This document shows, one piece after another, positions 1-25,022 of a stretch of 39,566 nt of DNA; position 1 is the first letter of the stretch; the number at the start of each line of letters is the position of its first letter. The notes under the pieces are model-generated. The model did not search any database and was not told the origin of the DNA. It saw only the letters and a program-made list of their open reading frames with translations. Source of the DNA: an uncultured Clostridia bacterium (GTDB taxonomy: Bacteria > Bacillota > Clostridia > UBA1381). Both the position numbers and the translations under genes were made by a program. The stretch lies in assembly GCA_944392335.1 (NCBI GenBank), contig CALXWJ010000041.1:1-39566 (forward strand), written 5' to 3'.

Positions 1-104
1 CGTGCTTTGGCACGTTCATTTTACCCTTGACAAATTTCAGTCGAGCATTTAAAAGCTATTTGGCAAAAATCGGCGGAATTTCGTGAAATCATTATGCTAT
101 TTTT

Positions 105-316
105 TCATTTTAACTTTACAAAACCAAATTCACATATGTCACTTATATCGCAATCAAGATATTCTGCTATTTTTAAAAGTATCAGCATCGAAACCGGTTC
201 ATCCCGTCTAATTTTGTCATTGTGTTTGGCGCAATATCTGCATTCTTACGCAAGTCAGCTTTGCTTAGTTTTTTATCTATTAACAACTTCCATAATTTAT
301 TGTATGATATGGTCAT
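105..316 (-). pseudogene. Frameshifted XRE-family regulator
   Basis: Reading the minus strand from an ATG at 316, behind a GAGGTG ribosome binding site, gives a typical small XRE regulator (starts MTISYNKLWKLLIDKK, continues KADLRKNADIAPNTMTKL). The frame then runs into a TGA at 182-184. Shifting by one base restores the rest of the family pattern (RRDEPVSM, LLKIAEYLDCDISDICEF) to a TGA at 105-107. The pattern fits one missing base near 213-216. The intact family is about 65-70 residues of DNA-binding helix-turn-helix. It is either a chromosomal pseudogene or a single-base sequencing error. Confidence 0.75.
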
Positions 317-527
317 GCTTGTCACCTCAATTATTTTATTATTCTATATTATATCATAATTTTCACAATAGTTCAATAAACTTTCTTAGAAATATAAGAA
401 AGTTTAATAAAAACGTGAGAGTTTACAAAAATATAATCTCCTGTTTTTGAAATTACAGAAATTCAAACCTTTTAATGATATAATAATGCACTAATTCGTA
501 ATATAACTGTGTTTTTTGCATAACAAC

Positions 528-550
528 AAGGGCTGAAAAATTCAGCCCTT
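528..550 (-). terminator. Hairpin downstream of the rubrerythrin fragment
   Basis: A 10-bp perfect inverted repeat (AAGGGCTGAA, 3-nt loop, TTCAGCCCTT) lies just beyond the rubrerythrin-like stop codon read on the minus strand. The flanking T-run is weak, so termination efficiency is uncertain. Confidence 0.5.
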
Positions 551-582
551 ATATCTAAACATATTTATTTGAGTTTAATTTT

Positions 583-657
583 AACCGAAGTATCTCTTTA
601 AAAGTCCTTCAAAGCCTTTTCCATGTCGAGCTTCGTCTTGAAACCGAGTTTTCAAAT
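583..657 (-). pseudogene. 3' fragment of a rubrerythrin/NADH-peroxidase gene
   Basis: The minus strand reads RFQDEARHGKGFEGLLKRYFG and then TAA. The segment DEARHGxxFxGLLxRYF matches, from memory of the family, the C-terminal end of clostridial rubrerythrin-type NADH peroxidases. Upstream of it the frame reads SPETAVFMRNLKT, unlike a rubrerythrin, and reaches a stop within about 20 codons. Only the last 20 or so codons of the gene are therefore present. This is what remains when a mobile element integrates into a gene 3' end, and the frame junction near 635-660 is the probable attachment region. Confidence 0.55.
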
Positions 658-763
658 TCCGCATAAACACTGCTGTTTCGGGGCTTTTTTACACTCCTTA
701 TTTTGTGATTTCCCACGGATTTCCCACGAGATTTTCTTTCCCACAAAAACATTTCTTTTTGCA

Positions 764-1004: not shown

Positions 1005-1379
1005 TTATTTCACCTCTTCGTATTTTAATATTCCATAGTGAAAGTATTCGTCTAATTCCTTTCGTAATTTGTTTAATGCATTTTTCTTTTGAACATATAT
1101 ACTATTTAAACTTGTATCCACTAAAAAAGCTATTTCAAATAGAGCAATATCATTCAAAATATTTAATATAATGACAATTCTTTCTATTTTAGACAGTTTT
1201 AGAATGCAATTAATGATTATTGCATTGTCAATTTCATTATAAAGCATAGTTATTGCAATTTTATCGACTAATTTTCTGCTTTCAATAGTTAACTCTTTAT
1301 CTGAAAAAACATAGTCTCTTATTTCGCAATCTTTTTCCTTTCTGCACCAATCTGTTATTATATACAATAAACTAAACAT
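1005..1379 (-). CDS. Sigma-70 region-4-like regulator (Tn916 Orf7 type)
   Basis: A 124-residue protein. The C-terminal half reads IERIVIILNILNDIALFEIAFLVDTSLNSIYVQKKNALNKLRKEL in outline, the pattern of a sigma region 4 helix-turn-helix followed by a recognition helix. Region 2 is not obvious. Similar short sigma-like proteins sit beside excisionase genes in Tn916/Tn1549-type elements, where they are thought to control the element. The start has a good ribosome binding site (AAAGGAG, 6 bases). Its AT richness exceeds that of its neighbours. Sigma activity has not been shown for proteins like this. Confidence 0.55.
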   Translation of the reverse strand: MFSLLYIITDWCRKEKDCEIRDYVFSDKELTIESRKLVDKIAITMLYNEIDNAIIINCILKLSKIERIVIILNILNDIALFEIAFLVDTSLNSIYVQKKNALNKLRKELDEYFHYGILKYEEVK

Positions 1380-3833: not shown

Positions 3834-4025
3834 TTATATAATGAATTTTGATATCTTTAATACTATCCGGATCAATATGTACTGATGTAAATCTTCATCA
3901 TATTTGCCATTAAAATAACAGTATTTTCTAATTAAAGATTCATACATAACAAGTATTGATTCCAAATCTTTGTGATTACCTGCTATAGCCCCTTGTAATG
4001 TGGTATAGAAATCAATGTCATTCAT
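3834..4025 (-). CDS. Tn916 Orf8-like helix-turn-helix protein
   Basis: A 63-residue protein starting MNDIDFYTTLQGAIAGNHKD, with the family pattern ILxMYExLIRKYCYFNGKYDEDLHQYI. This is the helix-turn-helix (HTH_16) small protein that accompanies sigma-like Orf7 proteins in Tn916 and Tn5397-type elements, where the pair regulates conjugation and excision. It resembles an isolated sigma region 2 or anti-repressor. The start follows GGAGAG and overlaps the stop of the upstream sigma gene by 8 bases, so the two are coupled. The length is normal for the family, though the last residues are hydrophobic (ISKFII). Confidence 0.7.
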   Translation of the reverse strand: MNDIDFYTTLQGAIAGNHKDLESILVMYESLIRKYCYFNGKYDEDLHQYILIRIVLKISKFII

Positions 4026-4434
4026 CTGTATTCTCTCCTTTACATAGCTGTTCTCTAAGCGTTTTTATTGCACGAAATTTTTGATTATATACATATTGTG
4101 AAGAGCAATTCAGTTTTTTCGCAATTTCTTCCGGCTTAATCTCCTCAACAAAGAGCATTTCTAATATTTTTCTTTTCATCAAAGGTAATTCATAGAAAGC
4201 TTTTGCCAAGCGTTCTTCTTCAAAATCGAAAGTCATTTTCTGCGAAGGGATTACAATATCTTTATCGCCAATAGGTTCTTCACTCTCAAACAGCTCTTCA
4301 ATTGACATTGTTTCCGGAGTTTTTTTTAATTTTCGCAAATAATCTATTTTCGCATTCTTTATAAGTTTTTCTAACCAAATTGTAAATCTTGCACGTAAAA
4401 TGTTTAATTCACCATTCTCCTGTCCTTGGTACAT
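4018..4434 (-). CDS. Sigma-70-family factor (Tn916 Orf7 type)
   Basis: A 138-residue protein. The chosen ATG (MYQGQENGEL) lies 7 bases after AAGGAGG; a longer frame to 4485 lacks a ribosome binding site. Residues about 80-130 give a clear sigma region 4: LPLMKRKILEMLFVEEIKPEE, IAKKLNCSSQYVYNQKFRAIKTL. The N-terminal part is Arg/Lys rich, with AKIDYLRKLKK. It forms a two-gene unit with the Orf8-like gene. Proteins of this type direct RNA polymerase to, or otherwise regulate, element promoters; the target here is unknown. It is a second, distinct sigma-like gene besides the one at 1.0-1.4 kb. Confidence 0.7.
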   Translation of the reverse strand: MYQGQENGELNILRARFTIWLEKLIKNAKIDYLRKLKKTPETMSIEELFESEEPIGDKDIVIPSQKMTFDFEEERLAKAFYELPLMKRKILEMLFVEEIKPEEIAKKLNCSSQYVYNQKFRAIKTLREQLCKGENTDE

Positions 4435-4574
4435 ATCAATGCCTCCTTTTGGGCATACCACCAGGACAGGTTTGCAACATGCCATGATGGCATGCTGTGA
4501 TTATTAAATTTACTTGTTTATGAAACCAACTCACAGCTATTAGAACATTGGATTCACCCCCTTCTGATATATGC

Positions 4575-4617
4575 AATAAAAAACGGTCATACCTCACCAC
4601 AGCAAGGCATAACCGTT
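4575..4617 (-). terminator. Intrinsic terminator after XRE repressor
   Basis: On the minus strand a 12-bp stem starting AACGGTTATGCCT and closing with AGGTATGACCGTT, including two G-U pairs and a loop of about 10 nt, is followed by TTTTTTATT. It lies about 95 bases past the XRE gene. Confidence 0.8.
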
Positions 4618-4710
4618 CCGTACAATCTACATTATTAATTGGTATAATAAGTATTTGTATTTCAATATTAAGTTTTCTTTCAGCTATTTCTCCTTATCAT
4701 ATGTATACCC

Positions 4711-5052
4711 CTATTTTAATGAATCATATTTTTCGAAATTATCCAATAAATTCTCTATAGCTTCACAAATAAAAATTTTCTTTCCAACAGGATACTTTTC
4801 AATTCTTTTAGATATATCTTTCATATACACTTTATCAGGATAACAGATATCTTTTACAAGCAATTGATCAACCGTAACAGATAATACACTTGCAATTGCA
4901 ACTAATGCTTCAACACTTGGAGTAGTCCTGGCATTTTCCAATTGTCCAATATATGAATCACTGTACCCCGTTTTTTCTGCAAGGTCAACCTGACGAAGTC
5001 CTGCGAATCTCCGATATTTACGTATATTTTTTCCTAATGCTATATAATCCAC
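4711..5052 (-). CDS. XRE-family transcriptional repressor
   Basis: A 113-residue protein with an N-terminal lambda-repressor-like helix-turn-helix (residues about 6-60): GKNIRKYRRFAGLRQVDLAE, then GYSDSYIGQLENARTTPSVEAL. The C-terminal 45 residues are short and helical, with no peptidase domain, so control by self-cleavage is not expected. The start is GTG, 9 bases after GAGGAG. The gene stands alone with its own terminator. It probably represses itself or a neighbouring element promoter; no operator could be assigned. Confidence 0.8.
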   Translation of the reverse strand: MDYIALGKNIRKYRRFAGLRQVDLAEKTGYSDSYIGQLENARTTPSVEALVAIASVLSVTVDQLLVKDICYPDKVYMKDISKRIEKYPVGKKIFICEAIENLLDNFEKYDSLK

Positions 5053-5180
5053 TTTTATCTTCTCCTCTAATTTATATTGTATTATATTTTATATCAAGGT
5101 GGAAGAGAGCGGTGGTTGTGTATTCGTAGCAATAGTGGTATTTTTATAGATTTTAATTGTATTATTGTTTTATAAATACA

Positions 5181-5213
5181 AATAAGCCTGACTAAAAGTA
5201 GCACAGGCTTATT
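5181..5213 (-). terminator. Intrinsic terminator of the parMR operon
   Basis: A perfect 10-bp inverted repeat (AATAAGCCTG/CAGGCTTATT, 13-nt loop) lies directly downstream of parR on the minus strand, with a moderate T-rich tail. Confidence 0.7.
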
Positions 5214-5225
5214 ACAGCTTTAATA

Positions 5226-5591
5226 TTAAAATAAATCTATGTTGTCAAGCATCGTTGCAATATCTTTATCAGTTGTTCCTGAAGTTATTGCATCACCTTC
5301 CTTTTTTATGTTATTTGACGCTTGGATTAAAGATAACTTTTCTTCTATCAAAGCACGCACCATTTGCTCGATCTTCTCCTTGCTATATGTGTGTAATGAA
5401 TTAAGTTTAATTTCTATTTTCTTTTCGGCTGTGTCAAGTTCAGGATGATTATCCATATATTCATTTATTGCTTCAACAACAACTCGACTTTTCCGATTTC
5501 CAAGCCGTTCCAAAAACTCTCCGGCTCGCACTTGATTATCAGAACCGGAATCAAACTGTAAAGAAAAGCGATATTTCCCGTCCTTAATCAT
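5226..5591 (-). CDS. parR: ParR-like DNA-binding segregation adaptor
   Basis: A 121-residue protein from the ATG placed 7 bases after AGGAGG (two codons into the longest frame). The N-terminal 50 residues (YRFSLQFDSGSDNQ, FLERLGNRKSRVVVEAINEY) fit a ribbon-helix-helix DNA-binding domain like the ParR/CopG adaptors. The C-terminal part is charged and helical and ends in an acidic, hydrophobic tail (MLDNIDLF) that could contact the filament. It lies directly after the ParM-like gene. In such systems ParR binds centromere repeats and links them to the end of the ParM filament. Sequence similarity is weak; the call rests mostly on position and fold pattern. Confidence 0.65.
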   Translation of the reverse strand: MIKDGKYRFSLQFDSGSDNQVRAGEFLERLGNRKSRVVVEAINEYMDNHPELDTAEKKIEIKLNSLHTYSKEKIEQMVRALIEEKLSLIQASNNIKKEGDAITSGTTDKDIATMLDNIDLF

Positions 5592-5602
5592 TGTCATTCC
5601 TC

Positions 5603-6529
5603 CTATGCTATATGAGAAGACAATGAAGATAATTTTTTCCTTCCAAGCATATCATATCCTATAGCATTTGCATTTGTAGATGTAATAAAATCCGCTTTAG
5701 CTACTTGATGGGAATTTTCAATAAATGGTCTAAGTAAAATGCTTCCGCCACCTACAAAAACTGCCGGATTCGAACGCAGATCAACCTGTAGCTCTCGTAA
5801 CTGATCCAAAATATCCTTGGCATGCAATCTGGTTGCTGAAAGAATAGTATCCTTTACATCTTGCGGCAATATTGTCTCTTTTCCACTAAGTACTGCGCTA
5901 ATATGCTCATCTTCAATTTTCATGTCGTGAAGGGAATTCACTTTTCTAATTATTTCATTGTTCATAGTAATAATACCTGTTTCAAGACTGCGACAAAACT
6001 GCATATCAGGCTTACCATTACGAAGAAGGAGAACATCTGTCGTATAACCGCCAATATCCACAATAAATATTCTAAGTGTATTTATAACAAGACTGCTTTG
6101 CGGAATGACGGCTGCATATGCCTGCGGAAATACCATCACGTTATTGATTTTTATACAATACGGTCTATCCTTATAGATAAACCTAACCTCTTTGTCTCGT
6201 TTGAAATAGCTAGCAAAGCGGTCTTTTAATATTCCATAATGTTCAGGCGGTAGTCCCACCGATAGGTCAATAATCTCAACAGGAGTGTATTGACCTGCAG
6301 ATTCCATTTCCTTTGCAATTGCAAATAAAGTTAAAATAAAATATCTGTCATCTTGAGTTTTATCCTTCATATAGTTTAGCCTTTTGCTGCTAAGAGTCCA
6401 GTAGCTCCCATTATACTCCAAAACCTCATCAGTAATAGGCGGTTTAACCGTATGTTCCGATAATCCGGATATAAAAGAAAAATTTAATGTTTTGATTGCT
6501 GAATTTCCATGATCAATTGAAATTAACAT
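5603..6529 (-). CDS. parM: ParM-like actin family segregation ATPase
   Basis: A 308-residue protein with the actin/Hsp70 nucleotide-binding pattern: phosphate-1 loop IDHGNSAIK (residues 5-12), phosphate-2 loop IVDIGGYTTDV (156-166) and a GGGS adenosine motif near 264. Length and motifs fit the ParM/Alp group of plasmid-segregation actins. Such proteins form ATP-driven filaments that push plasmid copies apart. The ATG follows GGAGG by 9 bases, and parR follows after 11 bases. Its promoter overlaps two direct repeats that could be the centromere and operator. An active parM argues that the element exists as, or derives from, an extrachromosomal replicon. Confidence 0.8.
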   Translation of the reverse strand: MLISIDHGNSAIKTLNFSFISGLSEHTVKPPITDEVLEYNGSYWTLSSKRLNYMKDKTQDDRYFILTLFAIAKEMESAGQYTPVEIIDLSVGLPPEHYGILKDRFASYFKRDKEVRFIYKDRPYCIKINNVMVFPQAYAAVIPQSSLVINTLRIFIVDIGGYTTDVLLLRNGKPDMQFCRSLETGIITMNNEIIRKVNSLHDMKIEDEHISAVLSGKETILPQDVKDTILSATRLHAKDILDQLRELQVDLRSNPAVFVGGGSILLRPFIENSHQVAKADFITSTNANAIGYDMLGRKKLSSLSSHIA

Positions 6530-6562
6530 TTTAGTATACCTCCATTTTATTATACTATATAG

Positions 6563-6591
6563 ATTACACGATATAAAATGCGTATTTGCAA
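6563..6591 (-). promoter_or_regulatory. parMR promoter
   Basis: Minus-strand TTGCAA (6586-6591), 17-bp spacer, TGTAAT (6563-6568), about 35 bases before parM. An alternative -10 (TATAAT) lies closer to the gene. Confidence 0.55.
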
Positions 6592-6605
6592 CTATATGCG
6601 TATTT
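6578..6605. repeat. Candidate parC: two direct ATGCGTATTT repeats
   Basis: The 10-base unit ATGCGTATTT occurs at 6578-6587 and 6596-6605, 18 bases apart start to start, overlapping the -35 region of parMR. ParR-type adaptors bind short direct repeats upstream of their own operon, which serve as both centromere and operator. Only two copies are seen, fewer than in classical parC sites. Confidence 0.5.
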
Positions 6606-6620
6606 TATATTCTTACTCAT

Positions 6621-6654
6621 AAAAAATGAGGCATAGCCATTACACTATGCCTCA
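6621..6654 (-). terminator. Intrinsic terminator after the primase-like gene
   Basis: A perfect 10-bp stem (TGAGGCATAG/CTATGCCTCA, 8-nt loop) followed on the minus strand by TTTTTTATG. It separates the replication/recombination operon from parMR. Confidence 0.85.
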
Positions 6655-6671
6655 CTATACATTTAAAATAT

Positions 6672-7736
6672 TCACTGTGATTTTCTTCTATTGAGACAAA
6701 ATTCCCAAATATAATCATCAAGTCCTTTATACCTTGGATCCCATATATATGTTCCAAATTTAAAATTCATTTCATCCAAAAGATTAAGTAGGTTTTTATA
6801 TGCGCTTTGAACATGGTGATTTGTTGATAAATCCATGTCAAAAGCTGTTTTAATTTCACACAATCCCTCTTGACGCATTTCAGTTAGAGCTGTTCTCAAT
6901 TGTGTTAAAGTGTTCACTCCCGGAACAGCAATAACAGTAAGTCCTGTAAGAGCATGAATTACATCTGCTTTCATTGGTCCTTCCGTAAGCAAAGCAATAG
7001 GTCTTATTGGTCCAACCAAATGCGTCCAAGATTCAGCTCGACATCCATCTGTTTTATCTGCACTAGAAACCCACCTGAATTTTCTCTTCTGAACATCATC
7101 TCTACGAATTTGTAATCCCTGTATTCTGCCTTTTATATCACGAACAGGAATGAGAATTCCTCTCTTTTCTTGAACAAAAGTCCAGTCACCATTGTCAGTC
7201 TTATAAAATCCTGGTACGCCCGCTAAGTAATATCCTTCATTCTGAAGTTGCTTAGCAAGAACGGACATACCAACAATCGGTGTTGTTTTATAACCTAATC
7301 TGATAATGTCATCATCAGATAATCCTCTATCAAATAGATTTTGTTTATGATCTCCAGCAAGTGACAATTTTGATAAAAGTGCCGTATATGTGGCATTTCT
7401 CGCTTCAATATCAGTGATGGGACAATCAACAACAGGCGTAGATGTATACTTTTTTCTTTCTGTATTTAAGTGCATAGGCAATCCTAAACTTTTCACAAGT
7501 GTTTTTCTGACCTTATCTCTTGGAACGCCCGTATATAATGAATATAAATCGAAAATACCTCCGGAAATCCCACAGCGTGGGCAACGATATACATCTTTTT
7601 TAAGATTTATGTTTAAATGCTTATTGCGAGGAAGTTCATCACAACAAGGACACTGTATATAATATGAACTTCGTCCATGAGGTGGACCAGGAAGTCCCAA
7701 AAGAGAAATTACATCACTTATATGAAACATCTCCAT
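6672..7736 (-). CDS. CHC2 zinc-finger/TOPRIM primase-like protein
   Basis: A 354-residue protein from the ATG 7 bases after AAAGGAGG; the longer frame to 7778 has no such site. The N-terminus has a DnaG-type zinc-binding module: CPCC at 29-32, a His near 39, then CPRC at 51-54 followed by GISGGIFDLYSLY. The middle has RGILIPVRDIKGRIQGLQIR, as in plasmid and phage primases. The C-terminal half has TOPRIM signatures (LLTEGPMKADV; then TAFDMDLS). It lacks a DnaB-type helicase domain. It probably makes RNA primers or is an inactive primase-like protein (DUF3854 type). It ends the long operon beginning at 14.6 kb. Confidence 0.75.
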   Translation of the reverse strand: MEMFHISDVISLLGLPGPPHGRSSYYIQCPCCDELPRNKHLNINLKKDVYRCPRCGISGGIFDLYSLYTGVPRDKVRKTLVKSLGLPMHLNTERKKYTSTPVVDCPITDIEARNATYTALLSKLSLAGDHKQNLFDRGLSDDDIIRLGYKTTPIVGMSVLAKQLQNEGYYLAGVPGFYKTDNGDWTFVQEKRGILIPVRDIKGRIQGLQIRRDDVQKRKFRWVSSADKTDGCRAESWTHLVGPIRPIALLTEGPMKADVIHALTGLTVIAVPGVNTLTQLRTALTEMRQEGLCEIKTAFDMDLSTNHHVQSAYKNLLNLLDEMNFKFGTYIWDPRYKGLDDYIWEFCLNRRKSQ

Positions 7737-7789
7737 GCAGCAGCCTCCTTTCCGGGGATAGCAATTTGCTATCCCCAAACCGAATATAT

Positions 7790-8575
7790 TTATGCCTTAG
7801 CCTGCTCAAGAGAGTATTCACAGATTAACTTGGCGGCTTCTTTAATTTTTTCATCGCCGCTAAATTTTGTAGCAATCCACATAATAGCGTTCTGGTCTTC
7901 TCGTAGGACTTCTCCTAATGTTTTACCGTTAAACTTTACTATAGGGCAAGGAATATTCATTGCTCCCTGAACTTTTTCCTCCAAGGTAAGCTCTCTGGGA
8001 GTTTCAGTATATGTATCAGCAACCATATATTCTTCGTCTTGCTTTGTTACAGTATTAGTCTTGGATTCAATATTTCCCGTTACAGATTCCGAGATTGGCT
8101 GTTGAATTTCAGAAACAGAAGTGTTTGTACCCAGTTCATCCGGAACAATTTTCTCAAATTCATCTCCGGCCATTGAAAACTGGAGTCCAAATCCAGCATT
8201 TCGTAGGGCTATACCTACAGCGGCTGTTTGTGACCACTCACGTGGTGATACAGACGGCTTATCTGCACAATAACCTCGTGATGCTGTCGCTTCAGATAAA
8301 TACTGTTCAGGACTATCTTTATAATCAGCATATATTTTTGCCGATGCAACAAAACAATCCTTTGCAGCCGTAACCTGCACGGCAATTTTACCGTTAGGAT
8401 ACTTCATCCGAAACCAGGCAATTTGTATAATAACAGGCAATCGTTTACTCGTCTCGCCTGTTGTTAGATCTGTGTATTCAACTGCAAAGGGTGCTGGATC
8501 AAACCCTTCCACCTTATTAATATTTTCTATAATCGACAACATTGCTGCCTTTTCATTCGAGTTATTTTGACTCAT
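7790..8575 (-). CDS. Putative single-strand annealing protein (Rad52/Erf-like)
   Basis: A 261-residue protein. The central part (VIIQIAWFRMKYPNGKIAV, later YCADKPSVSPREWSQTAAVGIALRNAGFG) has the Trp/Tyr-rich beta strands and the late helix GIALRNAGFG typical of Rad52/DdrA/Erf-like annealing proteins. A Ser/Thr-rich linker follows, then a small C-terminal domain (KTLGEVLREDQNAIMWIATKF) like the C-terminal module of exonuclease-X-type proteins. It shares an operon with a YqaJ nuclease and a RecD2 helicase, the usual partners. The function is inferred from weak similarity and context. Confidence 0.6.
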   Translation of the reverse strand: MSQNNSNEKAAMLSIIENINKVEGFDPAPFAVEYTDLTTGETSKRLPVIIQIAWFRMKYPNGKIAVQVTAAKDCFVASAKIYADYKDSPEQYLSEATASRGYCADKPSVSPREWSQTAAVGIALRNAGFGLQFSMAGDEFEKIVPDELGTNTSVSEIQQPISESVTGNIESKTNTVTKQDEEYMVADTYTETPRELTLEEKVQGAMNIPCPIVKFNGKTLGEVLREDQNAIMWIATKFSGDEKIKEAAKLICEYSLEQAKA

Positions 8576-8577
8576 AG

Positions 8578-9036
8578 TTAAGCCTCCTGTAAATTTATTT
8601 TTATATATGTATCCCTAAACTGCAGCCACATAGGCAAAACGGTATTAATACAGTTAGCAATACATCTTTTATAATGATCTTGTGTTTCCGCCTTAAAACT
8701 TGAAAAACGTTTTTGATTATCTCTTATAATATCTTCTAAAGCTTTATTAGCAGTGTCTCGTTTCTTTTTGCCGTTTTCGTCCAACGCAGGTCCAAATTTA
8801 TGATCCATTAAAAGATAACGAATACACACATCAACAATTTGATAATGTTGCCTCAAAACTTTTGTGTCTGTAGAAAGTGGTGCTGTCTTTGCCAAAATCT
8901 GAAATGTTTCCAAAACCCCAATGCGATGGTTAAGTTCCTGAGCCTGAAGTAATTCATCAAATGGCAAACTGTTTTCAGCCACCTTTTCGTATATATTAGC
9001 CTGCAGTGTATGATATTGCTTAAGTATTGTAGCCAT
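8578..9036 (-). CDS. Unknown helical protein in recombination operon
   Basis: A 152-residue protein, almost entirely predicted helix, with no recognised motif. It starts 5 bases after a GGAG ribosome binding site and its stop lies 2 bases before the start of the annealing-protein gene, so the two are probably co-translated. It contains AKKR-type charged patches (DENGKKKRDTANKALED) and a conserved-looking Trp near the end (MWLQFRDTYIKINLQ). The position between RecD2 and the annealing protein suggests a role in DNA recombination or replication, but nothing in the sequence proves it. Confidence 0.6.
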   Translation of the reverse strand: MATILKQYHTLQANIYEKVAENSLPFDELLQAQELNHRIGVLETFQILAKTAPLSTDTKVLRQHYQIVDVCIRYLLMDHKFGPALDENGKKKRDTANKALEDIIRDNQKRFSSFKAETQDHYKRCIANCINTVLPMWLQFRDTYIKINLQEA

Positions 9037-9065
9037 TTTTGTTCTCCTTTCAAGAATTAAGATTT

Positions 9066-11234
9066 TTAATATTCACATAACCGTTTTGCCAGACGAGTGC
9101 CTCGCTGTTCGGTATCTGTTCTTTTGATAGCAGTGCATAATGCACTCCTTTCACCTACGAAGATAACATGCTTTTTACCACGTGTAATAGCTGTATATAC
9201 CAATGGTCGAGTCAGCATAATATAATGAGCTTTCTGAAGATTGATAATAACTGAGCTATATTCAGAACCTTGAGACTTATGTATTGTAGATGCATAACCC
9301 AAATCAATCATATCAAGCTCACTCGAATCATACTCTTTAACTCTGCCATCTCCAAAATCAATATATGCCGTTACTTCATTGCCACTTTTTTTAATTTGGA
9401 TAATGTAGCCAATATCACCATTGTTAACATCATCGTGATTTTTAATTTGCATAACTTTATCTCCGCATCTAAACAATCGTTTTCCATGTGAGATTTCCTC
9501 GCTGTGTGAAGACTTTGGATTGACAATATCACGAATTCTTTCATTCAGTGCATTAGCTCCTGTATCTGTTTTCTGTCGATATGGAGTCAATAACGCAACA
9601 TTATCAACACCGTATTTTTTTACTTCCTCGACATATATCTGCGAAATCAAATCTGCTGACACCGCAATATCGGATGAATCAATAAACTCAAAATCATTCC
9701 CATACTCCATACTGAGATTGCCATGTTTAATAAGCTTTGCATTAGTTGCAATCCTGCTGCCGGAGGTTTGTCTGAAAACTCTTTCAAGTCTGATAGTGGG
9801 GATTCTGCCGCACGCTATCATTTCACTCAACACTGCACCTGGACCAACTGAAGGCAATTGGTCTGCATCTCCTACAAAAACAATTTGAGTTTGAGGTTTT
9901 AATGCTGAAAAAAGTTTCCCTGCCAGATAGATATCGAGCATAGACGCTTCATCTACAAGAACCAAGTCTGCATCAATACTTTCTGGAGTACCGTACTCAC
10001 CATCTTCACCAGCCATTAAACATAGAGTTTTATGAACAGTAGAAGAACTGTAGCCTGTAGATTCTTCCATTCGTCTTGCAGCACGACCGGTTGGTGCGCA
10101 ACAACAAATTATTTTCCCGGGATTGTTTCTGCTGTAAATATCAAGAATTGCTTTTTGTATCATAGTTTTCCCTGTGCCCGGCCCACCAGTAATAATAGAA
10201 AGACCATTAATTAGGGCCGTTTTCACAGCTTCTCTTTGCTCAGGGGCAAATTTAATTCTAAGCGTTTTTTCCTCCATGTTAAGTTCTCTCTCAAGGTTGC
10301 TATACGGATAATTCTGGTTTATAGAAATCTGGCTTTTAATGTACACAGCAAGCATCTTCTCAGCAGTATATGTCCTACTGCTGTATAGACATCCGTCATA
10401 TACATATATTTTTTGATTTCTTATCAGTTCATTTGCATACTTACCTATCATTCCTTCTGTAATTTCGGGTGTATCGAGTATTGTTAAGCACTCTTTTACA
10501 AAATTACTCTTTTCAATACATATATGTCCTTTGGTTTCTGCATCAGTAAGTGTATATAGAATACCTTGAGAAATTCTTTCCGCTGACAGAACATCAAATC
10601 CCATATTCTTTGCAATTTTATCTGCTGTTTTAAAACCAATACCAGCAAGTTCACAAAGTTTGTATGGATGTCGTTTCACAATATCCATTGCTTCATTTCC
10701 ATATTCCTTATACAGTCGTATTGCTCGATTAGGTGTGATTCCATATGGTGTTAAAAAAGCAATAACATCGCGCGCACCTCTGTTTGCTAGATATGAGTCA
10801 CATATCTTTTTAAGTTTTGTTTGGCTTATTCCAGATATTGAAGTAAGTTTCTCGGGTGAATTATCAAGCACATTAAGTGTTTCGTTACCAAAAGCTGAAT
10901 ATATTCGTTCTGCGAGTTTTGGTCCGATTCCCTTAATTTGACCAGATGATAAATAACCAATGATACCCTCTTTAGTAGGTTTGATGACTTCATCGTAGGT
11001 TTCAACTTCAAATTGAAGTCCGTGCTTAGAATTTTTACTCCATTGTCCTCGCATCTCATACCTGATATGTTCCGATATTGGCAAGGCGTATCCAACCGCT
11101 TTAATTTGATTAACAGTATTTCCTTTACTGTCAAGAACCTTTTCACAAGGAGTATAAATTGCTACCATATAACAACCCGAAGTAATCATTGCAATACTCT
11201 GAGGATAAACCAATCTACTAAATTGACATAACAT
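9066..11234 (-). CDS. recD2: RecD2-like 5'-3' DNA helicase
   Basis: A 722-residue superfamily 1B helicase. Residues about 85-215 contain the helix-hairpin-helix repeats of RecD2/YrrC proteins (GQIKGIGPKLAERIYSAFG, SISGISQTKLKKI, LAGIGFKTADKIAKNMG). Walker A is GGPGTGKT (350-357), Walker B VLVDEAS (about 426-431), motif III VFVGDADQLPSVGPG, and the C-terminal motifs TIHKSQGSEY and YTAITRGKKHV are intact. It should unwind DNA 5' to 3', in repair or replication of the element. RecD2 proteins act without RecBC. It has a good ribosome binding site (AAAGGAG) and lies in the DUF932-to-primase operon. Confidence 0.88.
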   Translation of the reverse strand: MLCQFSRLVYPQSIAMITSGCYMVAIYTPCEKVLDSKGNTVNQIKAVGYALPISEHIRYEMRGQWSKNSKHGLQFEVETYDEVIKPTKEGIIGYLSSGQIKGIGPKLAERIYSAFGNETLNVLDNSPEKLTSISGISQTKLKKICDSYLANRGARDVIAFLTPYGITPNRAIRLYKEYGNEAMDIVKRHPYKLCELAGIGFKTADKIAKNMGFDVLSAERISQGILYTLTDAETKGHICIEKSNFVKECLTILDTPEITEGMIGKYANELIRNQKIYVYDGCLYSSRTYTAEKMLAVYIKSQISINQNYPYSNLERELNMEEKTLRIKFAPEQREAVKTALINGLSIITGGPGTGKTMIQKAILDIYSRNNPGKIICCCAPTGRAARRMEESTGYSSSTVHKTLCLMAGEDGEYGTPESIDADLVLVDEASMLDIYLAGKLFSALKPQTQIVFVGDADQLPSVGPGAVLSEMIACGRIPTIRLERVFRQTSGSRIATNAKLIKHGNLSMEYGNDFEFIDSSDIAVSADLISQIYVEEVKKYGVDNVALLTPYRQKTDTGANALNERIRDIVNPKSSHSEEISHGKRLFRCGDKVMQIKNHDDVNNGDIGYIIQIKKSGNEVTAYIDFGDGRVKEYDSSELDMIDLGYASTIHKSQGSEYSSVIINLQKAHYIMLTRPLVYTAITRGKKHVIFVGERSALCTAIKRTDTEQRGTRLAKRLCEY

Positions 11235-11250
11235 TCTATTTCTCCTTTCT

Positions 11251-11910
11251 TTAAGTTAAAGGAACAAGTATCTTACGAGTTTTAGGAATAAATATTTCCT
11301 CATCCTCAACAGTATAATTATTGGCACACATAATAGCATAATCAACAATTTTATCAGCAAGCATATCAAATTCCTGAACCAGTCTGACACGCTCACGAAT
11401 ATCGTTAATATCCCAATCTTTAAAGTTTTCGTTATCATCGGTCCCTCGTCCTGGAAAAACCGATATATTTAAAGGAGCTGTCATGTAATCAATTCGATGA
11501 GGTTTTTTGCATCGTCCGCATATTGGTCCTGTTTCTTGAACACTTCTATAATTTCTTTGACCGCACGATGTACAAAAAGATTTATAATCTGATTTTGTTG
11601 CCTGCCCTTGATATAGCACCAGATATCCACCATTTCGTCCATTCATAGACGCCTGCCAAAGATAGCCGTGCTGATGATTAAATTCTTGTAAAAGTTCATC
11701 TATACCATAAAAAAACTCCTGAGTATGAATCATATCGAAAAGCTTATCTACTATCTCAGAACTAAGATCAAGTCTGTTTATTTTGAGATTACAAGCATAC
11801 GATTGTGATCCATTCCAGGAGTTCGCTGTATAATAGCGAAAATGTTTTACAAGAAACTCTATCATGGCATTGCGTGAGCGCAAGTCAATTCCTTGATAAA
11901 ATCTGACCAT
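11251..11910 (-). CDS. Unknown protein with a C4 zinc ribbon
   Basis: A 219-residue protein. Cys pairs at 113/116 (CTSCGQ) and 131/134 (CGRCKKPHR) form a probable zinc ribbon in the middle. The N-terminal 100 residues are aromatic-rich (HFRYYTANSWNGSQSYACNL) with the segment NGRNGGYLVLYQG. The C-terminal part is acidic and helical. It overlaps the upstream DUF7768-like gene by 49 bases, a strong sign of coupling. Similar zinc-ribbon proteins occur in clostridial plasmids and phages, but I cannot name a family. A DNA-binding or complex-assembly role is only a guess. Confidence 0.6.
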   Translation of the reverse strand: MVRFYQGIDLRSRNAMIEFLVKHFRYYTANSWNGSQSYACNLKINRLDLSSEIVDKLFDMIHTQEFFYGIDELLQEFNHQHGYLWQASMNGRNGGYLVLYQGQATKSDYKSFCTSCGQRNYRSVQETGPICGRCKKPHRIDYMTAPLNISVFPGRGTDDNENFKDWDINDIRERVRLVQEFDMLADKIVDYAIMCANNYTVEDEEIFIPKTRKILVPLT

Positions 11911-12428
11911 AGCCCATCACCACCTTTATCGAAAATTGGATTCGGGAGCGCCAAAACAGGATGGTTTCTATCAAATGTAACAAGAGATTTATTACCTCCG
12001 TTTTTTGTAACAAGCTTTTTAACTTCTAAGAATACATTTTCTTCAAAAACGATAATATTCATATGAAGTGCTGTAGCCTTTATAATTTCGTTGCGCATTC
12101 CGGAGCTCACACGAACACCACACACCAAAAGTATGTCGCTCTGTTCGAGAAGTTTTACCCCAAACTCAAGAGCGAGTGCTCTTTCAGCGTGATTTTTATC
12201 ACAAAGTAATAATGGAAGATATGCGTGAGGAGCTCTTGCAATAACATTTAGTTTCTTTGATGCATACAGCATATATGCTCTGGCACAGTGCATATTTTCA
12301 AGCATTGTTGCACTATTGTCCGCACCGAGAGGAGAGCATATATATGCTTTCATTTTAAGACGATCGTGCTTTAACAGCTGTTTATCAAGGTAAGTTTCCC
12401 ATTCGTAATTAAAAACTATTTTACTCAT
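11862..12428 (-). CDS. DUF7768/DUF4406-like nucleoside-processing-fold protein
   Basis: A 188-residue protein beginning with the signature KAYICSPLGADNSATMLENM, followed by ARAYMLYASKKLNVIARAPHAYLP and LLEQSDILLVCGVRVSSGMRNEI. This is the fold of DUF4406/DUF7768 proteins, distant relatives of nucleoside 2-deoxyribosyltransferases, common in phages and integrative elements. They may act on nucleotides or bind a nucleoside; the activity is unproven. The start has an AAAGGAA site. It sits between the YqaJ nuclease and the zinc-ribbon gene, overlapping the latter. Confidence 0.7.
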   Translation of the reverse strand: MSKIVFNYEWETYLDKQLLKHDRLKMKAYICSPLGADNSATMLENMHCARAYMLYASKKLNVIARAPHAYLPLLLCDKNHAERALALEFGVKLLEQSDILLVCGVRVSSGMRNEIIKATALHMNIIVFEENVFLEVKKLVTKNGGNKSLVTFDRNHPVLALPNPIFDKGGDGLWSDFIKELTCAHAMP

Positions 12429-12444
12429 AAATTTTCCTTTCTGC

Positions 12445-13482
12445 CTATAGCGGCTGAACAGATAACTTTAATTTTCTGCTTTCAGTTGTTGTAACCAATT
12501 CATTATGAATATTGGGATATTTTTTCTTCAGCAGAGCAGTGTCTGTTCGTTTTGATTTTTTTGTTGCAAAATCAATCAGAATCTTATCTTTTGTGGTTTC
12601 AAGAACTCCATGTTCGTGATTCTTCATTAATTCTGCTATTCGCACAGAATGTGCCTCAATCTCCTTTTCATATTTTTTTATTTCGCTCTTGCAAGCAGCA
12701 ATATCATCCTGTAAATCAAGAATACGGCGAGCATAATGCTCATACTTACGCGGCAATTCAATAGTTGGCAAACTCGGATTGCTGCTTCCGTAAATTCTTG
12801 CAAGTGATTCAAGAGCAAGTTTTGGGGCAATTCCTTCCATTTTAGGTGGTTTGTCGTGTTCTAAACTCCAAATCCATTCCTCAAGGCGTTCAAAAATCAT
12901 ATCTTCTTTTGCTTTATCACGCACAAGTCCAGGTGTAGCCATATCATTATCAGGATTATTTCCCCAGATCGCCGAAAAGTCACCAATACTGACATCTGCA
13001 ACCGCCAGGTAATACCTAAGCTGAAATTCGTAATACAGCGGATATTTTCCATCCGCCCATTCCGAAGCGTTGTGATATGTACAGCTTTTGCATTCCAGTA
13101 TACCAGGTTCGCCATCTGATGCCCTGATAAATCTGCGGTCAAAATCAGCCAAAGCATATTTATGATCTGCGTGTTGATACATATTAGTATCTTCTGTCAC
13201 AGTATTTCCTGTTTTTACACCATAAAAATGTGCTGCAATTGGTTCTAAGAAATGTCCCATTTCAAGCTGATTAGAGTTAGCCTTTAGTGGTGGCTTCATT
13301 TTACCTTTTTTTATCATCCAAAGTTCCAATGGTGTTGTCCATGGCGAAACACCAAAAATTACTGCAACATCACTTCCGCCTACAGTATAAGGAATATCAC
13401 CTTTTGGACCATGCATTCTACATGCAAGCCATGTAGATCGATCCATACCTGCAGTATCACATAATGCAATAGGCGCTGCCAT
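12445..13482 (-). CDS. YqaJ-type recombinase/exonuclease
   Basis: A 345-residue lambda-exonuclease-family nuclease. The start of the fold reads RSTWLACR, then GGSDVAVIFGVSPWTTPLELW (35-55). Catalytic residues fit the PD-(D/E)XK pattern: Glu in LEMGHFLEPIA, Asp in LADFDRRFI, the GILECKS motif, and Gln/Tyr in YYEFQLRYYLAV. It should digest one strand of a DNA end so that the annealing protein can pair the other. The C-terminal 100 residues are a coiled coil and a KILIDF segment also seen in phage homologues. The start overlaps the previous stop as TAATG, so expression is coupled. Confidence 0.85.
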   Translation of the reverse strand: MAAPIALCDTAGMDRSTWLACRMHGPKGDIPYTVGGSDVAVIFGVSPWTTPLELWMIKKGKMKPPLKANSNQLEMGHFLEPIAAHFYGVKTGNTVTEDTNMYQHADHKYALADFDRRFIRASDGEPGILECKSCTYHNASEWADGKYPLYYEFQLRYYLAVADVSIGDFSAIWGNNPDNDMATPGLVRDKAKEDMIFERLEEWIWSLEHDKPPKMEGIAPKLALESLARIYGSSNPSLPTIELPRKYEHYARRILDLQDDIAACKSEIKKYEKEIEAHSVRIAELMKNHEHGVLETTKDKILIDFATKKSKRTDTALLKKKYPNIHNELVTTTESRKLKLSVQPL

Positions 13483-14624
13483 TAGTAATTCACCGCCTTT
13501 GCGAGATCAAACTTGTTCCAATCAAGCGAAAGTGTTCGTGCAAGATTTTCTTCAATGGACAATAACTTGCTTTCAGGTGTATTTTCTGACTTGAGAAGAA
13601 ACATAATTTCCTGCATCGCCATAAATACATCGTGAGCTGTAGCTGGACCTCCTCCATAAGACATTTCAAACATTTGAATTGCTTCCAAAGCAGTTTTTTT
13701 CGGCATACTCAGTTTTTTACAAATACGTGTCATAGCATTTACCGGATATGAAAGAGTAATTTCTGTTAACTTTTGAAGTTTTGCAATAGAATCACCGAAC
13801 TGTGCAAAAAGCTGATCCAATGCCGTATCAAAATCTGAAACCTTTGACTGATGGCGATGATCTACTGCGATACAGCTACCAATATGGATGGGATACTGTC
13901 CTCCCATCAGAAGTGCAGATACCTTTGCAGATGCAACGCCGGTGTCTGAAGTTACAAACCTTATTCCCGGCACCAAATTCTTAGAAATATATGATTTGCC
14001 TATAGAGTTCAGGTGTTTCGTATATGCTCCAAGTAAATCCTTCTTTTGCGATGGCATTTTCCAGGACGCACTTGTAATCGCATGATCTGAATATCCGCCC
14101 TCAAACTCATTTCCAGGAAATCTTAGATCGAGTTTATTCTGCAACACTACTAAAAGTTCGTTGATTGGCAAAACAGAGTAATCTGTTTCATCACCAGAAT
14201 GAACTGCAGATACTTTTTCATCACGAATCAATACCAATGCATCTGACGGATAAATTTTCAGACATTCATTTAAAACATCTGAAAGTACTTTGCGGCTTAA
14301 TTTGGGTAACACAGTCCCGCTGATTTTTGCTCTATCGAGCAAACTCTTGTAAGCAGTAGTACGAATGGGGTATAATACTCCATCAATATCCATTGCCAAA
14401 CCAAGATTTTGAGCTGTGTCTTCAATAGCCTCATTGGTAGTTCCTGGTGCGAACGATAAAGGGCTTGAATAAAATGGCGAATCCTTATCAAGTGGTTGAA
14501 TATGCAATTCATTAACATGGCAGCGAGTCCACCTGCTTTTTTTCGCCAATTGTTCGTGATAGTCCTTCATTGCTGGATAGGAACTGAATGTTGTGGTAAA
14601 ATTGTCTTGACATTGTAATAGCAT
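13482..14624 (-). CDS. DUF932-like protein
   Basis: A 380-residue protein resembling DUF932 (phage/plasmid YubP-like) proteins: an N-terminal half ending ALVLIRDEKVSAVHSGDETDYSVLPINELL and a later segment GGYSDHAITSASWKMP and FVTSDTGVASAKVSALLM. Members are common next to annealing proteins and nucleases on plasmids, with no established biochemical role. It is the first gene of the long operon to 6.7 kb and overlaps the YqaJ gene. Two terminator hairpins and the first copy of the repeated leader RNA lie upstream, with no further promoter visible. Confidence 0.55.
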   Translation of the reverse strand: MLLQCQDNFTTTFSSYPAMKDYHEQLAKKSRWTRCHVNELHIQPLDKDSPFYSSPLSFAPGTTNEAIEDTAQNLGLAMDIDGVLYPIRTTAYKSLLDRAKISGTVLPKLSRKVLSDVLNECLKIYPSDALVLIRDEKVSAVHSGDETDYSVLPINELLVVLQNKLDLRFPGNEFEGGYSDHAITSASWKMPSQKKDLLGAYTKHLNSIGKSYISKNLVPGIRFVTSDTGVASAKVSALLMGGQYPIHIGSCIAVDHRHQSKVSDFDTALDQLFAQFGDSIAKLQKLTEITLSYPVNAMTRICKKLSMPKKTALEAIQMFEMSYGGGPATAHDVFMAMQEIMFLLKSENTPESKLLSIEENLARTLSLDWNKFDLAKAVNY

Positions 14625-14676
14625 AATACATGCTCCTTTCTTTTTTGGGCTTTGCCCGAGATTGATTTTTTATATA

Positions 14677-14712
14677 ACAAAAGCCGTCAAAACCCGAAGG
14701 CGATGACGGCTT
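14677..14712 (-). terminator. Second terminator hairpin in the DUF932 leader
   Basis: A 9-bp stem (AAGCCGTCA/TGACGGCTT) with a 14-nt loop, followed on the minus strand by TTTGTTAT. It sits between the leader RNA terminator and the DUF932-like gene, with no obvious new promoter after it. Confidence 0.6.
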
Positions 14713-14736
14713 GTGTACAAAATATTGACAAGAAAC

Positions 14737-14820
14737 AAAAAAAGTGCCACTTGCAAAAAGCAAATGACACTGTGTAAACTCTGATTACTGTGATTTCATT
14801 ATTGAAACCATGAAACTTAT
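14737..14820 (-). ncRNA. Repeated leader RNA, copy A
   Basis: A predicted transcript of about 84 nt from its own promoter. The order is: conserved ATATAAGTTTCA; hairpin GGTTTC/GAAATC (14792-14809); conserved AGTTTACA; then terminator stem AGTGTCATTTGC/GCAAGTGGCACT with TTTTTTT (14737-14743). The same plan recurs at 24.9 and 33.5 kb. It lies ahead of the DUF932/YqaJ/RecD2/primase operon. It may be an attenuator leader or a free small RNA. Confidence 0.65.
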
Positions 14821-14826
14821 ATGTTT

Positions 14827-14855
14827 ATTATATCAGAATTTCTCACAATAGTCAA
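14827..14855 (-). promoter_or_regulatory. Promoter of leader RNA copy A
   Basis: Minus-strand TTGACT (14850-14855), exactly 17 bp, TATAAT (14827-14832). Near-consensus sigma-A promoter. Confidence 0.8.
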
Positions 14856-14893
14856 TCCATTTATAAAAGAAAGAGCTGTTTGTCTACTATTGC

Positions 14894-14992
14894 TTATCTT
14901 TTACGTTTATTTGCCAGCATTAAACACATTGTAAAAACACCTATCAGTCCACCAAACATTGAGCCAATAATAAACATAAATAATGCAAACAT
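14894..14992 (-). CDS. DUF3789 membrane microprotein
   Basis: A 32-residue protein starting MFALFMFIIGSMFGG and ending MLANKRKR. The ATG lies 7 bases after GGAGG. One transmembrane helix with a glycine-rich face and a basic cytoplasmic tail match DUF3789, a family of tiny membrane proteins found in clostridial integrative elements. Its function is unknown. It lies between the methyltransferase terminator and the leader RNA promoter. The GxxGG pattern suggests helix packing or oligomers, which is inference. Confidence 0.75.
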   Translation of the reverse strand: MFALFMFIIGSMFGGLIGVFTMCLMLANKRKR

Positions 14993-15015
14993 TTCTTACA
15001 CCTCCAAAATAAATG

Positions 15016-15050
15016 TTAAAAAGAGGCGCTACCGAAGTATCGCCTCTTTC
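15016..15050 (-). terminator. Intrinsic terminator after methyltransferase gene
   Basis: On the minus strand AAGAGGCGATAC, a UUCG loop, then GTAGCGCCTCTT and TTTAACA. The very stable UUCG tetraloop is typical of real terminators. The microprotein gene 20-25 bases further on must be reached by read-through or from an unseen promoter. Confidence 0.85.
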
Positions 15051-15058
15051 CAAAATAA

Positions 15059-15985
15059 CTATGCAGTTTTTTTTCGTAGTTGCCACATACCCTTGCTGGT
15101 ATTTACGAAACATGAAGGATTATACTGCAGGGTCTGGCGAATTTTTTCTTTCCACCATTTATTTGATTTTGTTTTTTCATGATCTTGGATTTGATCATAA
15201 AGATATGAAAGCGGCACTGCAGTGCCACAGTCTTCTAATACTGCTGCCACAACATCTTTCCATGTTGCCTCTTTTGTGTCCCTTATATCATTCACAACTT
15301 GATGTGTGCACAATATTGGCATAATGAGTGATTCATCTTTACGCACAATCATTACATACTCGTGCAAAATCGGAATAAATGTGCCACTGTATTGTATATT
15401 ATCTGAAAAACAGTTATGTTGAGCCTTGATTATGACATTTTCAAGAGTTCCCGGCTTAACTATTTCAGATAGCATACTGTACAGTCTCCCTTTTTTCTTG
15501 ATATCTCCCATTAGGACTGCCATTCTGCCGCCTTTTTCAAGTGAGGAAAATTGCTTAAGCATTGCATAGTTCATCGCCTCCACAAACTTCTCCCATTTTG
15601 GTATACGTGATAAATCATATTTTATAGGATTATATCCGTATCTGCTTTCAACATCTGAAGCTTTGTACATAACATCAGAATATTTGATAATATCCCAGTA
15701 CGGAGGATGCCAGAATATAAATTCCGGACGCTCTTGAATATCACAATTCATGATATCAAATCCACTATGCAAATCATATATAAAGCTTTTTATGCCGCAT
15801 TTTTCAGCTGCTGCTTTTGTTGTACCACTGCCACACATATAATCGCATATCTCCATTGGGTGAAAGAAATCAATTAAATCCTCTATAAGCTTTGGAGAAC
15901 AATTACCACGATAGCGATTGTTGCCTCCTTCGCCTCGCTCAGGGTATGACACAATGCTGGTGAGTGTATGTTTTCTTTTTTCCAT
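15059..15985 (-). CDS. DNA methyltransferase (adenine/cytosine-N4 type)
   Basis: A 308-residue protein. AdoMet-binding motif I is CDYMCGSGTTKAAAEKCG (47-64) and the catalytic motif IV is HPPYWDIIKY (93-102). The first residue of the usual (D/N)PPY is replaced by His, as seen in some phage and integrative-element methylases. Residues about 240-305 form a winged-helix-like tail (ATWKDVVAAVLED, then GMWQLRKK) reminiscent of HARE-HTH domains. No restriction enzyme is nearby, so it is an orphan methylase, perhaps for protection or control of the element. It has a GAGGTG site and its own terminator. Confidence 0.75.
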   Translation of the reverse strand: MEKRKHTLTSIVSYPERGEGGNNRYRGNCSPKLIEDLIDFFHPMEICDYMCGSGTTKAAAEKCGIKSFIYDLHSGFDIMNCDIQERPEFIFWHPPYWDIIKYSDVMYKASDVESRYGYNPIKYDLSRIPKWEKFVEAMNYAMLKQFSSLEKGGRMAVLMGDIKKKGRLYSMLSEIVKPGTLENVIIKAQHNCFSDNIQYSGTFIPILHEYVMIVRKDESLIMPILCTHQVVNDIRDTKEATWKDVVAAVLEDCGTAVPLSYLYDQIQDHEKTKSNKWWKEKIRQTLQYNPSCFVNTSKGMWQLRKKTA

Positions 15986-16003
15986 AATACGTCACACCTC
16001 TCA

Positions 16004-16552
16004 TCAATACGGAACCCAATTATCTTCAATGTCAACCATTCGTTTACAGATGTGCTCTTCAGTTGTATAAACATTATATTCCGTATCATAAAGAAGAACT
16101 GATTCGTTTTCCAATGTTGAATTAATGTCATATGGAACTGTCACTATATTCGTGACTTCTTTAGTTTTTATATTTACCTCACAAGGTGTTATTACTTTTG
16201 AACCGTCTTCCCATGTTGTAACAAAGAAAGAATGGTGAGTCACTAAATTCAAATCCCGTTCTTTTATCATTTTATTATACTCTTGAAGTCTGTATCTAAT
16301 AATAAGGGTTGATATTATGAAAACAAGGATTAAGGACAGCGTATTTGTTACCAAAAACATATATCCATTTCCTTTTTGTGATAGATCTATCGCATATATT
16401 TCCATCATACCGATTCCCAGGGTGAGATATAAATATGTCTTAAGATTAAGATCTCCGCATGATTTTGTGCGAAGTAATTGTCTTATTTGAGGTACGTAAC
16501 CGACAGCCAGTATGATACCTCCAGCTAATTGCATAATATCAAAAAAAGTCAT
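16004..16552 (-). CDS. PQ-loop (SemiSWEET-like) membrane protein with cytosolic tail
   Basis: A 182-residue protein. The first 90 residues have three hydrophobic segments (about 5-25, 38-55, 65-87) with the signature GYVPQIRQLLRTKSCGDLN, including the Pro-Gln pair at 21-22. That matches bacterial SemiSWEET half-transporters, which dimerise to carry sugars. Unlike these (about 85-95 residues), it continues with about 95 polar residues (THHSFFVTTWEDGSKVITPC, then NVYTTEEHICKRMV). This tail resembles no family I know. The AGGAGG start is clear. On an element it may be a membrane sensor rather than a sugar carrier. Confidence 0.65.
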   Translation of the reverse strand: MTFFDIMQLAGGIILAVGYVPQIRQLLRTKSCGDLNLKTYLYLTLGIGMMEIYAIDLSQKGNGYMFLVTNTLSLILVFIISTLIIRYRLQEYNKMIKERDLNLVTHHSFFVTTWEDGSKVITPCEVNIKTKEVTNIVTVPYDINSTLENESVLLYDTEYNVYTTEEHICKRMVDIEDNWVPY

Positions 16553-16568
16553 TGTGGGACCTCCTTAA

Positions 16569-16787
16569 TTAAAATGGTAATTCATCTTGATATAATCGTA
16601 TTCTCCGACGATTCTGTATATATTTGATAGGGTGCCGATTAAATGTATGTCTGTGATATGTATATGTTCTTTTGCAATCAATACAAGTCAATATTGTACC
16701 ATACGAAACATACAAAAAATGAGTTTTACAATAATCACCGTGCTGTTCTACACGATGTTCATGAAGACATTTTCTTGGAATTTTCAT
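16569..16787 (-). CDS. Small Cys/His-rich protein
   Basis: A 72-residue protein from the ATG 8 bases after GGAGG (the longer frame adds five residues without a site). It contains CLHEHRVEQHGDYCKTHF and then CIDCKRTYTYHRH, enough Cys and His for one zinc site, in a strongly basic sequence that ends RRRIRLYQDELPF. It could bind nucleic acid. The start overlaps the end of the upstream gene by 29 bases. No family is recognised. Confidence 0.55.
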   Translation of the reverse strand: MKIPRKCLHEHRVEQHGDYCKTHFLYVSYGTILTCIDCKRTYTYHRHTFNRHPIKYIQNRRRIRLYQDELPF

Positions 16788-17661: not shown

Positions 17662-17673
17662 AAATATACCCCC

Positions 17674-18792: not shown

Positions 18793-18817
18793 ATAAATAC
18801 TCCTTTCGTCATACAAC

Positions 18818-18882
18818 ATAACGGGCAACAGAAGAAATCAGCTGCCCGTTATGGTCAATTTTTACCCTCACTCGGGCAACTG
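18818..18882 (-). promoter_or_regulatory. Alternative-hairpin RNA switch candidate
   Basis: Read on the minus strand, segment 1 CAGTTGCCCG (18873-18882) can pair along 10 bp with segment 2 CGGGCAGCTG (18839-18848). The overlapping segment ATAACGGGCA (18843-18852) can instead pair along 10 bp with segment 3 TGCCCGTTAT (18818-18827). The two stems exclude each other. No T-run follows, so any effect would be on translation or RNA decay of the next gene rather than termination. Confidence 0.5.
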
Positions 18883-18889
18883 TTAAATA

Positions 18890-21190: not shown

Positions 21191-21219
21191 TACAGGGTAA
21201 CCTCCTCTCGTGTATAATT

Positions 21220-23091: not shown

Positions 23092-23113
23092 TTCATAATT
23101 TCCTTTCTGCATT

Positions 23114-23851: not shown

Positions 23852-23865
23852 AACATATTGCTCCT

Positions 23866-24231: not shown

Positions 24232-24250
24232 ACAATACCTCCTTTAATAC

Positions 24251-24295
24251 GCAAAAAAGCGCACATGAGAATATAGTAAATACTCATGTGCGCTT
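24251..24295 (-). terminator. Strong intrinsic terminator after ssb
   Basis: A perfect 13-bp stem (AAGCGCACATGAG/CTCATGTGCGCTT) followed on the minus strand by TTTTTTGCG. There is almost no room for a new promoter before the next gene at 24231. Confidence 0.9.
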
Positions 24296-24325
24296 AATTT
24301 ACGCTTGATTTCATTGTTACACTTC

Positions 24326-24802: not shown

Positions 24803-24884
24803 GATAAAAACTCCTTTCTTGCAGGGATTGCCTGCTATAAAAATATATTTATTTCAACCCATAAATGGGTAGAAATCTGAAAAT

Positions 24885-24972: not shown

Positions 24973-24978
24973 ATATTT

Positions 24979-25007: not shown

Positions 25008-25022
25008 TCCATTGCATAAAAC

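Follow-up and report, generated by a model that had tools for sequence, protein, structure and literature searches.

A rubrerythrin 3′ remnant as the probable attL end of a large conjugative-type element in an uncultured Clostridia bacterium

The window analysed here, a stretch of 39,566 nucleotides from an uncultured Clostridia bacterium, is the whole of contig C41 of its genome (G000) and carries a fragment of a rubrerythrin gene beside an excisionase-like gene. The initial annotation had taken this fragment for the scar of site-specific integration into the 3′ end of a gene, with the intact gene expected at the far end of the element. Whether the fragment is such a scar, which enzyme would have made it and where the exchange would have taken place are the questions that this locus raises. 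The checks that were run support the annotated reading, and the remnant is very probably the attL scrap of a large conjugative-type element whose own tyrosine integrase inserted it at the 3′ terminus of a gene for a reverse rubrerythrin.

On the minus strand, the excisionase-like gene (xis) is followed by arm-type repeats, the rubrerythrin tail and a hairpin, in that order (Table 1). The tail reads ...DEARHGKGFEGLLKRYFG*, a rubrerythrin C-terminus of 18 codons and a stop rather than the twenty codons first counted, and the frame upstream of it is foreign as described, with stops and an end to the rubrerythrin sequence. Sequence comparison gave 86% identity over 90 bp between window positions 550-639 and the intact rubrerythrin gene of G000 on contig C38 (E 4e-23), and 83.7% over 123 bp between positions 517-639 and the equivalent place in a same-genus genome, G002 (E 5e-29); the similarity to both tails is more than chance. 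The hairpin lies where a terminator had been annotated, and the terminator scan gave no call on it because its T-run is imperfect. The adjoining Xis-like protein scored 38.3 bits against the TIGR01764 'excise' model (cut-off 28.8) and also matched Pfam HTH_17, in keeping with its first description as excisionase-like; a role in directionality is predicted. The 20-mer CGTGGGAAATCCGTGGGAAA of the arm-type repeats occurs once in the window and in 0 of 100 shuffles. A tRNA gene was considered as integration target and rejected, as the window holds no tRNA.

Table 1. Features of the window (39,566 nucleotides, contig C41 of G000).
Feature	Coordinates	Strand	Description
Host flank downstream of rubrerythrin	1..626	.	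Bases 1-128 are a dispersed repeat ending the contig
Hairpin 3′ of remnant, candidate host terminator	~528..550	-	AAGGGCTGA...TTCAGCCCTT; counterpart 3′ of the intact G002 gene
Rubrerythrin 3′ remnant (probable attL)	581..637	-	18 codons DEARHGKGFEGLLKRYFG and stop; host side predicted from ~position 11 of the repeat
Predicted exchange interval	627..631	-	Positions 7-11 of GACGAAGCNNG; mapped in the G094/G102 element and carried over by homology
Arm-type repeats	709..744	-	CGTGGGAAATCCGTGGGAAA (709-728) and a third GTGGGAAA copy near 736-743
Excisionase-like gene, 79 aa	764..1003	-	TIGR01764 and Pfam HTH_17
Sigma-factor-like protein, immediately upstream of xis	1005..1379	-	TIGR02937, 29 bits, below the cut-off of 42.9
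Element body	3834..34197	-	Pfam; order shared with G094 contig C46
Intergenic operator- or promoter-like block	26661..26747	-	82% over 87 bp to C38:27043-27128
Cargo region	34528..39566	+	Runs on into contig C32 via a 127-bp exact overlap

The element body encodes actin-like, DUF3854, RecD2-like helicase, YqaJ nuclease and methylase-like proteins and a VWA and AAA pair, together with SSB-like and NAD-dependent DNA ligase genes and others (Pfam). Contig C32 (C32:1-16310, L223), which extends the right end of the window, holds by eye ABC-transporter, response-regulator and histidine-kinase-like genes. At the other end, the contig stops at window position 1 because of the dispersed repeat there, which is matched by 12 other contigs, 8 of them at 98-100% over at least 120 bp; the five copies that were opened align over ~124-129 bp. 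A broken XRE-type regulator frame (MTISYNKLWKLLIDKKLSKADLRKNADIAPNTMTKLDGM...) occupies ~130-320 of the host flank on the minus strand.

The intact gene was found outside the window, on another contig of G000, as a 183-aa rubrerythrin (C38:30442-30993). With as many as 3 mismatches allowed, the tail pattern has exactly two matches in this genome, one on C41 and one on C38, and the two copies are 52/57 identical over codons and stop, which supplies the duplicated core. In the C38 protein the rubredoxin-like domain comes first and the rubrerythrin domain second; proteins of this layout are called reverse rubrerythrins. The name is also in use in the available text of PMC9674144. A FUR-family gene lies upstream, and on the 3′ side, in sense with rubrerythrin, follow a hairpin, the arm motif, a tyrosine integrase gene (int), a gene for a 346-aa protein that gave no Pfam match, and type IV secretion genes. 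The integrase (403 aa; PF00589, PF14657 and PF14659) begins 343 bp behind the rubrerythrin coding end, and the exact 20-bp arm motif occurs once beside it (L012 16286-16305). The mating-pore and coupling genes on C38, VirB4 and VirD4, matched T4SS-DNA_transf and P-loop_TraG.

We infer that C41, C32 and C38 are parts of a single element, at least ~85 kb long (~38.9, 16.2 and 30.4 kb), a size that is itself an estimate because nothing joins C32 to C38. No link between C41 and C38 was found by shared contig ends, the left ends of C32 and C38 gave no unique link, and a plasmid search found no plasmid carrying both halves. Among 95 order-level genomes, the VWA protein was present at 65% identity or more in three (G000, G031 and G007; five at E<=1e-60), and the 346-aa protein lay beside int in five (G000, G040, G032, G023 and G031). 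The markers of the two halves therefore overlap in G000 and G031 only, too few to prove linkage.

Both halves were recovered from a second genome, G094, in which contig C46 has collinear matches to 29 of the 32 proteins queried from the window, and contig C160 to 16/16 C38 proteins. Contig C160 starts with the tail, and by eye its first 87 bases are the end of C8, the contig that bears the intact gene. The 87-bp intergenic block also occurs once on each half in G094, as it does on C41 and C38; it has repeated TGGCACA units and a TATAAT-like box, and may be an operator that co-regulates the transfer and DNA-processing operons. By eye, both of these G094 contigs, C160 and C46, continue past the conserved part of the element into many carbohydrate-metabolism-like genes (L204-L207 and L218), which may be element cargo or host sequence. 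In genome G097 a complete related element lies on one contig, where rubrerythrin and int are followed by the sigma-like gene, xis and the remnant, with ~30.6 kb between the two tails; the type IV secretion genes of C38 were absent from it among the genes queried. The order of sigma-like gene and xis is preserved in both G094 and G097.

A search of 70 family-level genomes found the Xis-like protein in four, one of them G000. In G075 and in G020, whose xis copy is decayed, arm-like sites and a rubrerythrin tail stand behind xis, and a tail-pattern search found no second tail in G075; the broken xis copy of G026 has no tail behind it. Three of 13 genomes with a related integrase also carry the protein, with the tail ~140 bp behind xis in G094 and G102 and 2.2 kb behind it, with one gene in between, in G097. 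The G026 copy and the 2.2-kb stretch of G097 were counted against the reading proposed here. Four elements could be followed to both ends (G000, G094, G097 and G102), and each has the exact arm motif at both. Intact genes that run straight into a flank resembling the one beside a remnant, as expected of empty sites, were found in G002 (for G000), G033 (for G075) and G018 (for G020), the latter two by eye; all are relatives, none an element-free strain of the species of G000, and the G002 case carries a caveat on which tail is native. G070 (L092), G009 (L090) and G098 (L213) look like stacked elements with several rubrerythrin tails, and the G009 remnant has a C38-type element tail behind it in place of host sequence.

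Within G000 alone the crossover cannot be fixed, because the repeat contains six identical blocks of at least 6 bp; the encoded tail is the same in both copies. At its junctions, a related element is nearly identical in two hosts, G094 and G102. The 300 bases before the remnant are identical between them (300/300), as is attR from position 11 to 256, and the differences fall at positions 6, 9 and 10 in attR and from position 9 onward in attL; the exchange is therefore placed between positions 7 and 11 of GACGARGCNNG. On this alignment, strand exchange in G094 and G102 is shown to lie within 5 bp, in the Ala-Arg codons, with HGK to the stop apparently supplied by the element. Exchange in these codons means that the element replaces the last ~14 codons, and the protein ends HGKGFEGMLKRYFG in G094 and HGKGLEGLLKRYFK in G102 both become HGKAFEGLLKRFF*. 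To the initial annotation these results add that int and xis mark opposite termini of the element, and that the restored gene would end in element-supplied codons.

A scan of GTDB contigs was used to relate the integrase to its target, and the best 80 of 440 integrase relatives were retained. Rubrerythrin or its tail lay upstream in sense of all 13 integrases with at least 54% identity, among which L100, cut by a contig edge, begins inside the tail, L110 has a gene truncated by the start of its contig, and L104 has the tail only, preceded by another integrase. It lay upstream of none of the 67 with 33% identity or less, although the target might be missed in L126, L166 and L178 because less than 400 bp is available upstream. 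The relatives come from metagenome-assembled genomes of uncultured Ruminococcus, Oscillospiraceae, Eubacteriales and Clostridia and from Pseudoflavonifractor phocaeensis An507. A phage origin of the integrase was rejected: 67 phage records match, the best among those listed at 31% identity. The exact arm motif is present in 7/14 integrase-side junctions (the 13 relatives and G000), and the remaining seven carry variants (GTGGGCAAA, GTGGGACAG, AAGGGCAA and similar). The hairpin 3′ of rubrerythrin is kept in sequence and place in 12/14 of these loci (L109 carries another hairpin, and L111 lacks one), a conservation that rests on sequence and place and not on the finder score because the terminator finder was too lax, with 8-24 of 50 shuffles positive in 13/14 loci and 1/50 in L111. 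Of 61 relatives, 48 were found to encode a rubrerythrin of the C38 type. With four query integrases, a downstream integrase was seen in 6 of the 24 rubrerythrin loci with at least 600 bp downstream, G000 included, and in 7 of the 30 opened overall. Two or more tail copies were present in 10/70 genomes, and some of these may be paralogues.

The event that these data suggest would proceed as follows. The integrase would bind the arms and the core and cut within the Ala-Arg codons, and the last ~14 codons would give way to a tail brought by the element together with a terminator-like hairpin of its own. The Xis-like protein of the window would help reversal, by which the original tail would be restored. 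The predicted circle has the order sigma-like gene, xis, attachment site, int, so that xis and int would flank the attachment site and not stand side by side.

Other histories of the remnant were weighed. Rubrerythrin paralogues occur in G000 and its family, and the remnant could be a decayed paralogue that lies beside an excisionase-like gene by chance. This explanation is scarcely credible: remnants begin at the same codon in several genomes and stand close behind xis and arm sites in G075, G020, G094 and G102, a complete element lies on one contig in G097, and the comparison of G094 with G102 also disfavours it. Stacking, in which an element with the C38 integrase would adjoin the gene and a separate element of the window would lie beyond it, would agree with the unjoined state of C38 and C41 and has apparent parallels at this 3′ end in G070, G009 and G098. 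It would, however, predict three tails where G000 has only two, and both junctions share the arm motif, both halves share the intergenic block and both recur together in G094; two elements at this site are therefore held to be distinctly improbable.

A further alternative concerns the position of the exchange. In G002 (L096, C183) the sequence is C38-like up to position 86, with 47 exact bp (40-86), and beyond that resembles the window (29/31). The crossover in G000 might thus lie after the stop codon (TTAGATATA, positions 80-88), in which case the tail of the intact gene would be native and that of the window element-borne. Against this, the exchange of the related G094/G102 element maps to positions 7-11, and the tail and UTR behind it in those genomes appear element-borne and resemble those of C38, so that a post-stop crossover is considered unlikely. 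G002 itself may be a former host, or a source-like host of the element tail, or may reflect such an exchange in G000, and it leaves some doubt as to which of the two G000 tails is native. Judged on these comparisons, the reading of the window as the probable attL end of an integrated ICE-type element holds.

The choice of target invites a further suggestion, namely that something beyond conservation favours the rubrerythrin 3′ end. Int stands in sense with rubrerythrin, 250-390 bp behind it; since rubrerythrin is an oxygen-defence gene and in G000 has a Fur-family gene just upstream, transcription under oxygen stress could run on into int, so that integration or excision would be coupled to oxygen exposure. 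If true, the coupling would act on oxygen exposure during passage between gut hosts. The C-terminus rewritten by the element, as from HGKGFEGMLKRYFG to HGKAFEGLLKRFF in G094, might also change the enzyme. We regard this suggestion as very doubtful, and read-through from rubrerythrin into int is disfavoured because of the conserved terminator-like hairpin between them.

More broadly, the data suggest that mobile elements of gut Clostridia have used this integration site repeatedly; the integrase subfamily predicts the site, and arm motifs vary inside the subfamily. In such genomes the C-terminus of a rubrerythrin can come from an element, and where assemblies are fragmented, scraps of the tail show where elements end. 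A near-identical element in two hosts can give a crossover position to near base-pair resolution without experiment.

The conjugation genes were compared with known modules. VirD4 is like that of Tn1549-type elements and scores 396.7 bits with the CD1115-family model, above its cut-off of 250, whereas VirB4 falls below the cut-offs for CD1110 (267/325 bits) and Mbov_0397 (285/590 bits). A Pfam scan of part of the element proteins, with the gap between C32 and C38 remaining, recognised no relaxase. VirB4 is 51% and 48% identical to proteins of plasmids from Subdoligranulum variabile (OY725878.1) and Vescimonas fastidiosa (NZ_AP023417.1), respectively; the VirB6-like matches to these plasmids are partial, and the VWA and AAA proteins of the window are unmatched there, their only plasmid match being one Enterococcus faecium plasmid at 30-38%.

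Integration at the 3′ end of a gene that leaves the product unaltered or nearly so is well known, and the site-specific tyrosine integrases of Streptococcus ICEs use the 3′ ends of housekeeping genes such as rpsI, rplL, rpmG, lysS and guaA, as given in the available text of PMC4701971. The search of open-access literature, including the available parts of PMC4701971, PMC1924603 and PMC9674144, yielded no description of integration at a rubrerythrin gene. As in the Streptococcus ICEs described in that part of PMC4701971, an integrase of ~400 aa with PF00589, PF14659 and PF14657 lies beside the target gene, integrases group by target, and the gene end is retained or little altered. Unlike those ICEs, the element described here has a target, reverse rubrerythrin, that is not among the targets listed there, and carries xis and int at opposite ends when integrated. 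The event is thus of an ordinary kind, integration in a gene 3′ end: the site is new to the literature searched and the natural exchange is cleanly mapped, but the mechanism is not new.
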